DNA from: Rhodospirillales bacterium
GTDB lineage: Bacteria; Pseudomonadota; Alphaproteobacteria; JAJFIK01
DNA length: 50,150 nt
NCBI GenBank assembly: GCA_021775005.1
Contig: JAJFIK010000063.1
Span: 1-50,150, forward strand
Reading direction: 5' to 3'
Shown: piece after piece, positions 4,670-48,844 of the stretch
Position numbering within the stretch: position 1 is the first letter of the stretch
How the letters are laid out: every line of letters begins with the position of its first letter
Notes under the pieces: generated by a model
What the model saw: the letters and a program-made list of their open reading frames with translations, nothing else
Told to the model about the DNA's origin: nothing
Databases searched by the model: none
Position numbers and translations under genes: made by a program

Positions 4670-6196
4670 ATGCGTAATTTAGGATTTGTCGGCCTCGCGG
4701 TCGCCGCCCTTATCGCCATAGCCGCCACACTCTGGTTTGTGCTTTTGGATCGGGGGGAGGACTTTGCTGTCGCCGGTTTGGAGCGCGCCATAACCGAAGC
4801 GGGCGGCAGCTTCGCATCCATCGAAGTTGACGCGAGCCTAGGTGAGGTGGTGATTACCGATCTCAGCCTTCCGGACATCCAATTTGATGGCGGTGCCGAA
4901 CAGCTTGATCTCCTGGAAATTGAACGGTTGTCTGCGCGAGGCGTAGCGCGACGTTCGTTTGCGGAACTGGTACGGCTGAATTCTGAGCAACACCTATTTG
5001 ATCAAGTCATCCTTGAAGGCGTGACATTGGTAGAAGCGGGGCAACGCATCTCCATTCGCCGTGTCCAGGTCAGCGATGCTCGCATTGTGCCCAGCGCAAC
5101 GAGATCGCCCATGGGAGACACGGTGACCCGGGAACAGGAAACCGCTTATAACGCGCTGCTGGTTCACCTGGGCGAAGTTGAGATCAGCGGCTTTGCCTCA
5201 CCACGCGAAGGGATTACCGGCGCGGAAATGGAGCTTGCGACGCTGACCGGCTACGCTGGTGGAAGGTTTGAAAGTTTTGACGCATCCGGATTGCGCCTTT
5301 GGGACAATGGTCAGACCGGAACCGTTGGTGATTCCATATTACTGCAAATTGGTGCCCTGCGTCTGGCCGATGTGGATATGACCCGCGCCCTGAATAGGGT
5401 TGTTGCAGGGCAGGCACTGACCTTTGAGCGCCAAAGTGAAATTCCCACGTTTGCGGAGCTGTCTGCAGAGGTCATCGAAGCCGAAGATGAACTGGGCACC
5501 GCGATCCAGATTGCGCGTATGAGCTTTACCAACAGCGCCTACGTCGGTGCGCTTGCAACTGAATCCAGCGTCACTGTTAATGAGTTGCATTTCCCCTTGG
5601 ACACCGACGCGGTTGAGTCAGCGCAAATCAATACGCTCCGGCGTCTCGGCTATGATGATCTGATTATTGATTTCAACTACCACTCGCAATTCGACATGGC
5701 GACGGGGGTTGCCAACCTGGATCGCATGCAGGCGGCGGTTCGTGACATGGGGGAGCTCAGTCTGGATCTCTCTCTGCATGATGTGCCCTTTACCGAAGAT
5801 ATGGTGGAGATGACCGGGGCCACGCTTGCGGAATCGGGCTTTATTGATCAAATGCTGGCGGAAGCGACCTTTGCCAGTGGCACAATTCGTTTTCAGGATA
5901 TGGGCATTGTTGATCGCTTGATCGATTTCCAAGCGCTTCAAGAGGACAAAGCGCCCGAGGATGTGCGCGCCGAAATTCAGGCGCAACTATTGGCTTCCCG
6001 CGCAGAGATGGCGGCGTCACCCTTGGCGCTGGAGGCGATGGATGCGCTGCTCGCTTTTGTTGAGAGCCCTGGCAGCATTACAGTTGCAGCAAATCCAACA
6101 GAACCAGTGCCTGTGAGCCAAGTGCTTGTCGCAGCACAGATTAATCCCGCACTTTTATTGGAAATCTTAAACTTGCGTGTTTCCGCACAAGACTAA
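4670..6196 (+). CDS. membrane-anchored protein of unknown function, AsmA-like architecture
   Basis: A 508-aa protein with an N-terminal membrane segment (about residues 5-25) and a large, presumably periplasmic, beta-rich acidic body. Short repeated strand-turn-strand units (for example VVITDLSLPDIQF, VEISGF, IRFQDMGIVD) give it the look of AsmA/DUF748-like periplasmic proteins, but I find no diagnostic motif. The C-terminal third has a helical Glu/Ala-rich stretch. The gene starts 84 bases after mmsB and ends convergently with ppk2: the TAA at 6194-6196 overlaps the last codons of ppk2 by four bases. I do not recognise the family with certainty and assign no function. Confidence 0.8.
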   Translation: MRNLGFVGLAVAALIAIAATLWFVLLDRGEDFAVAGLERAITEAGGSFASIEVDASLGEVVITDLSLPDIQFDGGAEQLDLLEIERLSARGVARRSFAELVRLNSEQHLFDQVILEGVTLVEAGQRISIRRVQVSDARIVPSATRSPMGDTVTREQETAYNALLVHLGEVEISGFASPREGITGAEMELATLTGYAGGRFESFDASGLRLWDNGQTGTVGDSILLQIGALRLADVDMTRALNRVVAGQALTFERQSEIPTFAELSAEVIEAEDELGTAIQIARMSFTNSAYVGALATESSVTVNELHFPLDTDAVESAQINTLRRLGYDDLIIDFNYHSQFDMATGVANLDRMQAAVRDMGELSLDLSLHDVPFTEDMVEMTGATLAESGFIDQMLAEATFASGTIRFQDMGIVDRLIDFQALQEDKAPEDVRAEIQAQLLASRAEMAASPLALEAMDALLAFVESPGSITVAANPTEPVPVSQVLVAAQINPALLLEILNLRVSAQD

Positions 6197-46078: not shown

Positions 46079-46155
46079 GGTCCCATAGCTCAACTGGATA
46101 GAGCAGCTGCCTTCTAAGCAGCAGGTTGCAGGTTCGAGTCCTGCTGGGATCACCA
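46079..46155 (+). tRNA. tRNA-Arg (anticodon TCT), integration target
   Basis: 77 bases. The acceptor GGTCCCA pairs with TGGGATC (one G-U pair), then A and encoded CCA. The anticodon stem GCTGC/GCAGC encloses CTTCTAA, giving anticodon TCT. Its last 46 bases are repeated at 48799-48844, marking it as the attachment site of the following island. Confidence 0.96.
46110..46155 (+). repeat. att-like direct repeat, left copy (in tRNA-Arg 3' half)
   Basis: 46 bases from the anticodon loop to CCA. The copy at 48799-48844 is identical except for one base (G46143 versus A48832). Confidence 0.9.
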
Positions 46156-46218
46156 AAAGTATATTTAAAAACAATTAGTTACAACAAAGAGTTTAATTGA
46201 TTTAGTTCTAGCTAGACA

Positions 46219-46239
46219 GTCTAACCGGAAAAGTTAGAC
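46219..46239. repeat. inverted repeat GTCTAAC-N7-GTTAGAC at the left island end
   Basis: Seven-base perfect arms (46219-46225, 46233-46239). The same TTAGAC/GTCTAA core returns at the right end (48706-48713, 48762-48769). Confidence 0.6.
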
Positions 46240-46330
46240 ACTTTGTTCCTGCTAAGTCCTTGATCTGACTCATTTCCCTGCTGCCCGCCGGTTAGAGGGG
46301 TTTATCTCAGTAGTGGTTGCGAATCGTGTT

Positions 46331-46346
46331 GATACTGTACAGTATC
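46331..46346. promoter_or_regulatory. HipB operator O1
   Basis: GATACTGTACAGTATC is a perfect 16-bp palindrome. It is the most divergent in the core of the four sites (consensus GATACCG-NN-CGGTATC). Confidence 0.7.
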
Positions 46347-46386
46347 AGACCTCGGTGTGGTCTTTCTGTGCACACCCATTTAGTGG

Positions 46387-46402
46387 GATACCGTACGGTA
46401 TC
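46387..46402. promoter_or_regulatory. HipB operator O2
   Basis: GATACCGTACGGTATC, a perfect palindrome (18 bp with flanking G and C), just upstream of the -35 element at 46408. Confidence 0.75.
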
Positions 46403-46407
46403 CTATA

Positions 46408-46436
46408 TTGACATTTTGGAAGCAAGCCCATATATG
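46408..46436 (+). promoter_or_regulatory. promoter of hipBA
   Basis: Consensus TTGACA (46408-46413), exactly 17 bases, TATATG (46431-46436). Operator O2 ends five bases before it and O3 begins immediately after, so bound HipB would block it from both sides. Confidence 0.7.
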
Positions 46437-46452
46437 GGTACCGAACGGTATC
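46437..46452. promoter_or_regulatory. HipB operator O3
   Basis: GGTACCGAACGGTATC, two changes from O2; it covers the predicted transcription start. Confidence 0.7.
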
Positions 46453-46461
46453 ACAAGAGAA

Positions 46462-46477
46462 GATACCGAGCGGTATC
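46462..46477. promoter_or_regulatory. HipB operator O4
   Basis: GATACCGAGCGGTATC, palindromic except at the centre; 25 bases centre to centre from O3, and 32 bases before the hipB ATG. Confidence 0.7.
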
Positions 46478-46509
46478 AAGTTGGTCGCCTAGCCAGATAG
46501 GATAGTAAG

Positions 46510-47358
46510 ATGAGTAACAAGAAAAAGAGCAAAGACAGTGCGGTCACTGGCGGAGTGTTCGGAGAAGATCACTTTGAGCCAATAAACAGGCATCTCACGC
46601 CGGGTGGTTTTTCGGTGTCTGATTTGCCGTTAGATCGCACCCTCAACGCTATCCAGTCATTGAACATGCCCTATAGCGAAACGGATAGAATTTCCAACCT
46701 GCTTGGCAATATTGATCCATTAGGTTCAGTAATGCGTGACCAAATGGGAACTTTGCCACCCACTGAGTACAATTCACTTGGAAGTGTCCTTGGACGGCCG
46801 TCTTACATTGATGAGATTTTTACTCCTGGGTCGTCGTCACTTTCCAATTACAGCCCGGAAGCTCGTATCTCTACGCTCGCTGATGATCTTGCCGCGCAGA
46901 TAACGTCAGCAGGTTTAACGCTTGCTGAAATTGATCCGTTCAAGTCGCTTTTGGCAGACCAAGTGGGAACTTTGCCATCCACTGAGTGCAATTCACTTGG
47001 AAGTGTCCTTGGACGGCAAATTCATGCTGGGGCAAATGATTTTCTTTCTTACGTTGGCTCAGAAAAATATGCACCAAGTTCATTTGATTCTAATGCACAT
47101 GAATATGCGCCCACTTCGAAACCGATAAGCAAGCCTTCGGCAAAAAGTACTCGAATAAAAAATTTGGAAATTTTGGGTTCTATGGTGCGTGCACGACGCG
47201 ATGAACTGGGGCTTTCGCAGCAAGAACTTGCTGACATTGCTGGTGTTGGGCGTCGGTTTATTTCCGAGTTTGAGAGGGGTAAGATCACAATTGAGTTCGG
47301 GAAAGCAATTGATGTCTTGAATGCTTGCGGTATCGATTTGGGTGCAAGCTGCCGATGA
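46510..47358 (+). CDS. hipB: HipB-type antitoxin with a long N-terminal extension
   Basis: 282 aa. Only the last 65 residues (218-282) form the HTH_3 repressor expected of HipB: MVRARRDELGLSQQELADIAGV and RRFISEFERGK. HipB proteins are usually 70-100 aa. The first about 215 residues are Ser/Gly/Pro-rich and contain two copies of DQ-x-GTLP-x-TE-x-NSLGSVLGR (residues 77-96 and 150-169), produced by a 60-bp duplication. The extension has no fold I can recognise. The gene overlaps hipA by four bases (ATGA), the normal coupling of antitoxin and toxin. It should repress its own promoter through O1-O4 and neutralise HipA. Confidence 0.85.
   Translation: MSNKKKSKDSAVTGGVFGEDHFEPINRHLTPGGFSVSDLPLDRTLNAIQSLNMPYSETDRISNLLGNIDPLGSVMRDQMGTLPPTEYNSLGSVLGRPSYIDEIFTPGSSSLSNYSPEARISTLADDLAAQITSAGLTLAEIDPFKSLLADQVGTLPSTECNSLGSVLGRQIHAGANDFLSYVGSEKYAPSSFDSNAHEYAPTSKPISKPSAKSTRIKNLEILGSMVRARRDELGLSQQELADIAGVGRRFISEFERGKITIEFGKAIDVLNACGIDLGASCR
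46738..46797 (+). repeat. 60-bp intragenic direct repeat, copy 1
   Basis: Matches 46957-47016 with three substitutions, in frame, offset 219 bases. It codes the first DQ-GTLP-NSLGSVLGR unit of HipB. Confidence 0.9.
46957..47016 (+). repeat. 60-bp intragenic direct repeat, copy 2
   Basis: Second copy of the repeat at 46738-46797, 57 of 60 bases identical. The near identity suggests a recent duplication or recent gene conversion. Confidence 0.9.
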
Positions 47359-48692
47359 CAATTGAGTTAGATGTGTTTCTTGAAGGATATCAAGAACCAA
47401 TTGGGGTAATTGTTGGTGATGAAATCACGAACAACCTGGAGTTCAAATACAGCGACGCTTATTTAGAACGCGAAGACAATGTGCAGTTATCGCTTTCGCT
47501 GCCGATCCAAGAAAAGGAATACAAGGACTCAGAATGCAAAAGCTATTTCACAAATCTAATACAAGAGAACAACTCGCTTGAGACATTAATTGATCAACTA
47601 GGTATTGATAGAAACAACACTGCCGGCATCCTCTATCACATCGGTGCCGATTGCGCTGGCGCAGTATCGTGCGTCCCAAAGGGTTCACCAGCTCCAAAAC
47701 GTCCGGGAGATCTAAGAACTGACTACGATGTGATCGAAAAGGACCAAATTGTAAAAATCATTCACGAACTGAGCGAATACGGTAGATTGCCGGACGGGAC
47801 GAGAGACCCATCACCCGTTGCAGGCGTTCAACCCAAACTAGCTTGCGTATATACTGGTGGCGTATTTCTCCAACCGAAGCCCGGACTCGGCGTACCTACG
47901 ACCCATCTGCTCAAGGTGGTTAAGCGTGGGAGTATCTTAACAAGTAAGCATGAATCCATTGCGCTCAATGTAGCCAAGTCAGTTGGATTAGAAATTCCAG
48001 ATTTTGTTGAAGGTGACTTTAGCGGAGCGATCTCAACAATCTTGCTAGAGAGATACGATAGAACCTTCGACGGCAGCACAATATCGCGAATTCATCAAGA
48101 AGACTTCGCGCAAGCACTAGGACTCCCTCCGCGCCTTAAATATGAAAGGAATGGTGTGATCGGCCGTCGTTTTGACGCGCGATCCATTGTACGAATTCTG
48201 AAAGAGACAACGGCGCCAGCAATTTCAATGCGCAAATTCATCAAGGCGACCTTTGTAAACCTCGCGCTCGGCAATGTAGACAACCATGGCAAAAACCATG
48301 CGTTGCTGTATCGGAAACCAGGGTATCCGACACTCGCTCCATTTTACGATATCGTACCTACCCGGCTAGACAAGCGATATGCAGATCAGTTCTCGTTCAA
48401 TATTGGGTCAGCTGAGAGAATTGACAATCTGACGCCCGAGGACGTTGCAGAGTTCCTAGGACAATTTGGTTTGAAAGCGAGCCAATCTAAGGCGATACTC
48501 AAAAACGAAGTCAAACCTGCAATTGCCTCAATTTCGGAACAAATCGAACACGTAGCTGCCGACGGCCATAAATTGCTGGCTGACTTGATCGCTCAGAATA
48601 CGTCCTACATCTGCAATATCCTTGAATGGGGTGATATAAAAATACCTGTTCGGGATTTATTCGCGCATGATGTTGGCGGCTGGATCGACTAA
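47355..48692 (+). CDS. hipA: HipA-type serine/threonine kinase toxin
   Basis: 445 aa with the HipA N-terminal couple domain (about 1-100) and kinase core. Lys187 in THLLKV is the ATP-binding lysine. GNVDNHGKN (306-314) holds catalytic Asp309, and PFYDIVPT holds metal-binding Asp332. LERYDR and HQEDFAQALGLP are conserved HipA segments. Family members phosphorylate aminoacyl-tRNA synthetases (GltX for E. coli HipA), causing growth arrest. The P-loop region reads SPVAGVQPK, with Ser153 one place off from the autophosphorylated serine of E. coli HipA. ATG 47355 overlaps the hipB stop. Codon use and A+T content differ from the core genes, fitting transfer. Confidence 0.92.
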   Translation: MTIELDVFLEGYQEPIGVIVGDEITNNLEFKYSDAYLEREDNVQLSLSLPIQEKEYKDSECKSYFTNLIQENNSLETLIDQLGIDRNNTAGILYHIGADCAGAVSCVPKGSPAPKRPGDLRTDYDVIEKDQIVKIIHELSEYGRLPDGTRDPSPVAGVQPKLACVYTGGVFLQPKPGLGVPTTHLLKVVKRGSILTSKHESIALNVAKSVGLEIPDFVEGDFSGAISTILLERYDRTFDGSTISRIHQEDFAQALGLPPRLKYERNGVIGRRFDARSIVRILKETTAPAISMRKFIKATFVNLALGNVDNHGKNHALLYRKPGYPTLAPFYDIVPTRLDKRYADQFSFNIGSAERIDNLTPEDVAEFLGQFGLKASQSKAILKNEVKPAIASISEQIEHVAADGHKLLADLIAQNTSYICNILEWGDIKIPVRDLFAHDVGGWID

Positions 48693-48705
48693 CCAAAGGA
48701 ACGGC

Positions 48706-48769
48706 TTAGACACCCATGCTCTGTAACCCGCAGTTTCCGGTCACATCCCAACTGGCCAAAAGTGTCTAA
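48706..48769. repeat. inverted TTAGACAC / GTGTCTAA pair at the right island end
   Basis: TTAGACAC (48706-48713) and GTGTCTAA (48762-48769) flank 48 bases directly before the right tRNA copy. They share their core with the inverted repeat at 46219-46239. Confidence 0.55.
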
Positions 48770-48798
48770 CCCCCTTGAACCTGCTTACTTTGTTTGTT

Positions 48799-48844
48799 CC
48801 TTCTAAGCAGCAGGTTGCAGGTTCGAGTCCTACTGGGATCACCA
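48799..48844 (+). repeat. att-like direct repeat, right copy (tRNA-Arg 3' fragment)
   Basis: 46 bases equal to 46110-46155 with a G-to-A change at 48832 that breaks a base pair of the T stem. It has no D arm or acceptor 5' half, so it is not a functional tRNA. Confidence 0.9.

Follow-up and report, generated by a model that had tools for sequence, protein, structure and literature searches.

A HipB antitoxin with a long N-terminal tail, and an apparently undescribed alphaproteobacterial branch of tailed HipBs

What is the long stretch of protein that precedes the DNA-binding domain of the HipB antitoxin encoded on a Rhodospirillales contig (JAJFIK010000063.1, assembly GCA_021775005.1), is it translated, and what may it do? 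We analysed the first 50,150 nt of this contig, hereafter the window, in which an original prediction made from the letters alone had described a HipB enlarged about threefold by an unrecognised N-terminal extension (Table 1). The size claim was borne out: the protein is 282 aa long, and the best matches to the couple_hipB model TIGR03070 in our sample of the class lie in open frames of ∼70–145 aa, apart from the window frame (285) and one other (348). The helix–turn–helix (HTH) domain is confined to the end of the protein, as had been proposed, falling within the last 62 residues; this is not the short, HTH-only protein that the 58-position TIGR03070 model describes. The TIGR03070 match has an E-value of 6.6e-20 and scores 70.8 bits with the protein and 74.0 bits in a whole-genome search against a cut-off of 71.65, and HTH_3 matches residues 226–277 (E 4e-11). 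In an AlphaFold model the HTH core reaches pLDDT values of 92–98; a fold search with the HipB model returned HTH proteins, and the best Foldseek matches of the HTH were the HipBs of Legionella and Shewanella, with that of Escherichia coli also close. An AGGA sits 7 nt before the hipB ATG and the junction with hipA is an ATGA overlap, placing the two genes in one operon with the HTH antitoxin gene upstream of the kinase.

Table 1. Features of the hipBA locus and its surroundings, in window coordinates
Feature	Position	Strand	Remarks
tRNA-Arg (TCT)	46079–46155	+	Intact (ARAGORN); integration target
Left 46-bp direct repeat, presumed attL	46110–46155	+	3' part of tRNA-Arg
Degenerate operator-like palindrome ATACTGTACAGTAT	46332–46345	.	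2 mismatches to ATACCGNNCGGTAT
Operator-like palindrome ATACCGTACGGTAT	46388–46401	.	Exact; CCGNNCGG core
Operator-like palindrome GTACCGAACGGTAT	46438–46451	.	50 bp from site at 46388
Operator-like palindrome ATACCGAGCGGTAT	46463–46476	.	Exact
hipB	46510–47358	+	ATG start; antitoxin of 282 aa, N-terminal tail and C-terminal HTH
N-terminal extension	46510–47160	+	Residues 1–217; mostly low-confidence structure, with a few weak helices
Internal in-frame duplication, copy 1	46701–46798	+	Encodes ...MGTLPPTEYNSLGSVLG
Internal in-frame duplication, copy 2	46920–47017	+	219 nt further on; encodes ...VGTLPSTECNSLGSVLG
HipB-type HTH	47170–47340	+	Residues 221–277 (TIGR03070); protein ends with HTH
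hipA	47355–48692	+	445-aa HipA-family Ser/Thr kinase; Couple_hipA and HipA_C; Ser150 position is Pro preceded by Ser
Right tRNA-Arg 3' repeat, presumed attR	48799–48844	+	45/46 identical (98 %)

That the locus is a tailed variant of hipBA is close to certain. Its HipA matches Couple_hipA (E 4.8e-19) and HipA_C (E 2.9e-34) and, when aligned to solved HipA, keeps the catalytic Asp and Asn and the Mg-binding Asp, a D, N, D set present in 50/50 kinases of the clade described below, the window included. Just before hipB, matching to the pattern ATACCGNNCGGTAT found two exact sites, one site with a single mismatch and one with two; one further two-mismatch site lies elsewhere in the window, where ∼1 is expected per window at that mismatch level. 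Judged from the letters, this palindrome array before the operon fits the hipBA type, and no sigma-70-like promoter was found in the operator region of the window. With the hipBA systems of E. coli K-12 and Shewanella oneidensis (HipA main clade I) the locus shares the gene order, both HipA domains, the kinase residues, the HipB HTH and the presence of several palindromic operators; it differs from them in a HipB tail that is N-terminal and long, with the HTH at the end and not a single Trp in the protein, in the residues at the HipA Ser150 site and in the operator core CCGNNCGG. An N-terminal stretch is also found in the HipB of E. coli O127, where residues 1–35 are unseen in the crystal (PMC10627512), but this belongs to HipBST (E. 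coli O127, Legionella), whereas the locus here has two genes and not three, and its HipA is full length and unsplit into HipS and HipT. HigA2 of Vibrio cholerae is alike only in how it works, having a disordered region beside the antitoxin HTH (PMC11006873); its toxin is HigB2, and the window system is not a member.

The extension itself was as featureless as had been predicted. No Pfam family matched residues 1–217, no plasmid relative was found, scans of genome and viral contigs (which find close kin only) returned none, and among 385 genomes of the class there was no relative beyond one weak match of 42 aa. This last (genome G178, residues 10–51, E 4e-4, 33 % identity, within a 769-aa frame) was judged to be chance, and a known domain in the tail was likewise rejected, as Pfam gave no match and the PADLOC and NCBIfam matches all fell on the HTH region. 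AlphaFold block means of pLDDT are mostly 38–71 over the window tail, with 69–82 around residues 111–150, and 37–77 over the tail of a Mesorhizobium homologue, low over much of its length; as the input alignments were shallow (18–36 rows) and HipA was absent, such low confidence may reflect poor data and not disorder. The window tail has a net charge of −6. It also contains a duplication of 98 nt, on which the original prediction was silent, as it was on the tRNA-flanked island considered below. The two copies are 81 % identical, their 3' parts are far more similar than their 5' parts, and the last 19 codons show a few non-synonymous and zero synonymous differences, with dN/dS for the duplication near 0.8; the sequence GTLP occurs twice in the tail, both times inside the duplication.

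Is such a tail peculiar to this locus? Scans of genome and viral contigs with HipB alone, which find close kin only, gave nothing, whereas a HipA alignment run against the genome contigs succeeded, yielding 80 further loci. A tblastn search of plasmids with HipA found homologues of 38–43 % identity in Rhizobium, Sinorhizobium, Agrobacterium and others, and at several of these plasmid loci the HipB is 112–203 aa long with its HTH at the end. Our comparison set comprised 116 HipA–HipB pairs from genome-contig, genome-search and plasmid loci, in which the HipBs were divided into two sorts by HTH score, 50 of the window type and 66 others. Extensions of at least 40 aa were present in 46 of the 50 window-type HipBs and in 6 of the 66 others. 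They measure about 40–235 aa (median 97) in the tail clade, again with the HTH at the protein end, although start codons were set by rule, partly guided by sites near operators, and individual tail lengths are uncertain. The four short exceptions comprise one sequence in which a base immediately before the HTH is ambiguous, one that is masked there, and two, from Pelagibacterium and a Phyllobacteriaceae MAG, that depend on start choice. The window HipB clearly goes with the tail clade by its HTH sequence: the 25 best BLAST matches of this domain are all tail-clade, and it scores 95.5 bits against a tail-clade HMM built with the window excluded versus 53.9 bits against that of the sister clade. 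On the HipA tree the tail label requires 11 changes compared with ∼38 in shuffles, and the window forms a long branch that is unplaced.

The tails have diverged fast, with 35–81 % identity in most pairs compared with 79–98 % for the HTH, and they share short motifs: [ST]LP occurs in 14/32 tail clusters (4.0 expected) and [DE][LI]A[KR] in 13/32 (0.8 expected), the clusters being diverged but homologous tails and not independent samples; the second motif is absent from the window tail. The window HTH belongs with the Y4mF/couple_hipB antitoxins (TIGR03070) of rhizobial plasmids. Some of the nearest rhizobial homologues (Rhizobium, Agrobacterium, Sinorhizobium) are also N-terminally tailed, and at least one is annotated Y4mF, but the window tail, with 219 aa before the HTH, is among the longest and bears no detectable resemblance to the others in sequence. 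Some tail-clade HipBs already have database entries, under the name 'helix-turn-helix domain-containing protein' or that of 'Y4mF family antitoxin'. An N-terminally tailed HipB was not described in the literature searched, which for the HipA family survey with its 11 clades and ten gene organisations (PMC8262856) means the main text, so that an earlier mention is possible. Tail-bearing HipBs are apparently an undescribed, widespread alphaproteobacterial branch of HipB antitoxins; the extension in the window is no one-off but its own version of a tail common to these hipBA loci. As a separate observation, the tail-type hipBA pairs on plasmids of Rhizobium indigoferae (locus L071) and Agrobacterium (locus L073) adjoin an integrase gene, and the former is also near repC and repB.

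The branch carries further marks in its DNA and its kinase. The core CCGNNCGG lies before 43/45 tail-type hipB genes, the window included, but before only 4/37 short ones, against a chance expectation of 0.04–0.46 per locus, and 45 of the 73 spacings between neighbouring sites measure 49–51 bp, the distance met most often in the clade. In HipA, every one of the 87 rows aligned for the branch (50 from the tail clade, 37 from the sister clade) has Pro at the Gly-rich-loop position equivalent to Ser150 and a Ser directly ahead of it, and Ser occupies the position in 28/28 outgroup rows; Ser-Pro is thus common to the long- and short-HipB clades of the HipA branch. In E. coli HipA, Ser150 is the autophosphorylation site, and HipA-related kinases without such a Ser (HipG) are described in the family survey (PMC8262856). 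The loss is on that account taken as variation and no bar to hipBA membership, and the phosphosite has possibly shifted to the neighbouring Ser. The window HipA ends in Gly-Gly-Trp-Ile-Asp (48648–48689), and a C-terminal GGW is common in tail-clade HipAs and rare in outgroups. Across clades it is strongly associated with HipB tail length (33/42 versus 14/43, p 3e-5). Inside the tail clade no such association is seen (p 0.34), and for that reason it may be mere descent.

In order for any role to be assigned to the tail it has to be made. Since the window tail is without a detectable sequence relative, selection on it was read from relatives and not from the window itself. In 13 of 15 computable pairs of relatives, tail dN/dS was 0.14–0.72 with few gaps, the remaining value being 0.90, from one 39-codon comparison that occurs twice; several pairs, such as L071/L073 and L138/L128, gave 0.14–0.3 over 80–137 gap-free codons. 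For the HTH, dN/dS was 0.02–0.2 in all pairs but one. Depending on the locus, 91 to 701 nt separate the HTH from the last operator. In 43/43 loci with operators the frame, followed upstream from the HTH, stays open to a point no more than 53 nt from that operator, a test that is independent of start assignments; at the base composition of the window, 219 open codons have a chance of ∼5e-6. On this sequence evidence the tail is a translated protein in the branch, under purifying selection in relatives. The original prediction had named as its own refutation a short HipB initiated inside the frame, the part upstream being left untranslated, and this is contradicted by the purifying selection, the few gaps and a frame open to the operators at any tail length. 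Such a protein could begin in frame from TTG at residue 219 or 222 or from ATG at 225, but with the HTH match starting at 221 the latter two already lie within it, and TTG 219 has no AGGA-like site ahead of it. As the AGGA and the operators instead lie just upstream of the long start, and the tails of relatives are under coding selection, we regard a short HipB from residue 219–225 as the sole product as extremely improbable.

The surroundings of the operon set this locus apart within its clade. Direct repeats of a tRNA 3' end on either side of foreign-looking DNA are a feature of integrative elements at tRNA genes, be they decayed or cis-mobilizable. The window island (46079–48844) resembles them in its tRNA 3' repeats around such DNA, with a GC content of 44–50 % between the repeats compared with 54–62 % outside, but differs in being only 2.7 kb long, with no integrase and a single toxin–antitoxin pair as cargo; hipBA is all that lies between the repeats. 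Eight integrase matches occur in the genome, none of them on the window contig and none linked to the island. In two congeners (G001, G002) the same tRNA-Arg and the downstream Sel1-repeat gene are kept at the syntenic place and hipBA is absent; both carry other genes at the tRNA-Arg site, and no clean empty site was seen. These observations fit an insertion in the window species that has decayed or was moved in trans. What lies between tRNA-Arg and the Sel1-repeat gene differs within the genus: a Lon-like protease gene in one congener (L171, G002:C64) and several genes, including one for a metal-type P-ATPase, in the other (L172, G001:C280). A tRNA island as a habit of the tail clade was rejected, as only 4/49 other loci have a tRNA in their fetched flanks, each time of a different type. 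Elsewhere in the window genome (L185, G000:C81), a 4.6-kb stretch without an integrase match lies between a tRNA-Lys gene and a second, 87 % identical copy of the 3' part of that tRNA (984–1046, 5602–5664); its genes look ordinary, metabolic and transport.

What, then, may the tail do? We put at about even the chance that it is a fast-evolving, largely disordered region whose role is to bind HipA, to expose HipB to proteases, or both. HipB would dimerise through its HTH and, together with HipA, repress its own promoter at the palindromes, and the N-terminal tail would take over the jobs of C-terminal tails in other antitoxins. It is a natural candidate for degron and HipA-contact functions because the HTH ends the protein, leaving no C-terminal tail. 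The tail may grip HipA via short motifs that take on structure once bound (the repeated [ST]LP and the helical Leu-Ala segments are candidates), and, being exposed and unstructured, it would make free HipB a protease substrate; if the island were lost, HipB would decay first and HipA would be left active, and the island would thereby be kept in place. In E. coli HipB, a disordered 16-residue C-terminal tail is the Lon degron, and its removal leaves HipA affinity unchanged (PMC3376134), so that an antitoxin tail need not bind its toxin; this C-terminal tail also holds the Trp for which a reach to HipA has been proposed (PMC10627512). In V. cholerae, a single disordered region of HigA2 serves both to neutralise the toxin and to tune its own binding to the operator (PMC11006873). 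Even for E. coli, the way in which HipB inhibits HipA is incompletely understood (PMC8262856). A bolder proposal, which we think rather unlikely, is that neutralisation of HipA by a long N-terminal disordered tail is branch-wide and in step with the remodelled kinase (Ser150 phosphosite lost, often a C-terminal Gly-Gly-Trp), and would amount to a distinct mode of HipA control.

The same data allow other roles. The tail could act mainly on DNA, bridging or tuning HipB dimers on operators 50 bp apart, with the HTH dimer neutralising the toxin as in E. coli HipBA. Tail-bearing HipBs do accompany CCGNNCGG arrays at that spacing, the HigA2 region can act on operator DNA (PMC11006873), and E. coli HipB leaves the HipA active site unblocked (PMC10627512); we nevertheless consider this unlikely, as the negative charge of the window tail disfavours DNA contact and the association of tail with operators may be common descent only. 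The great range of tail length and the fast divergence relative to the HTH, together with the dN/dS near 0.8 of the window duplication, would also suit a filler under weak constraint, lengthened and shortened through internal duplication, with the function residing in the HTH. Against this, several pairs of relatives have the low dN/dS given above over long gap-free stretches, and short motifs recur among tails, making mere filler improbable in our judgement. Finally, a separate functional domain, such as a signal sensor, may have been fused to HipB and be absent from profile libraries. The region of residues 111–150, predicted to be helical, is what could be expected of one, but there is no confident fold over the tail, no relatives were found outside HipB and tail lengths differ widely in the clade, and we hold such a domain to be very unlikely.

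The reading of the tail as a disordered HipA-binding or protease-exposing region, and its alternatives, can be approached through the branch itself. With a different tail, a different phosphosite and a fixed operator spacing, these loci are natural variants with which neutralisation, degradation and repression could be separated. The tRNA island, with just two genes, is also a very small example of an element whose only cargo is a toxin–antitoxin pair, and it could be tested for self-preservation.
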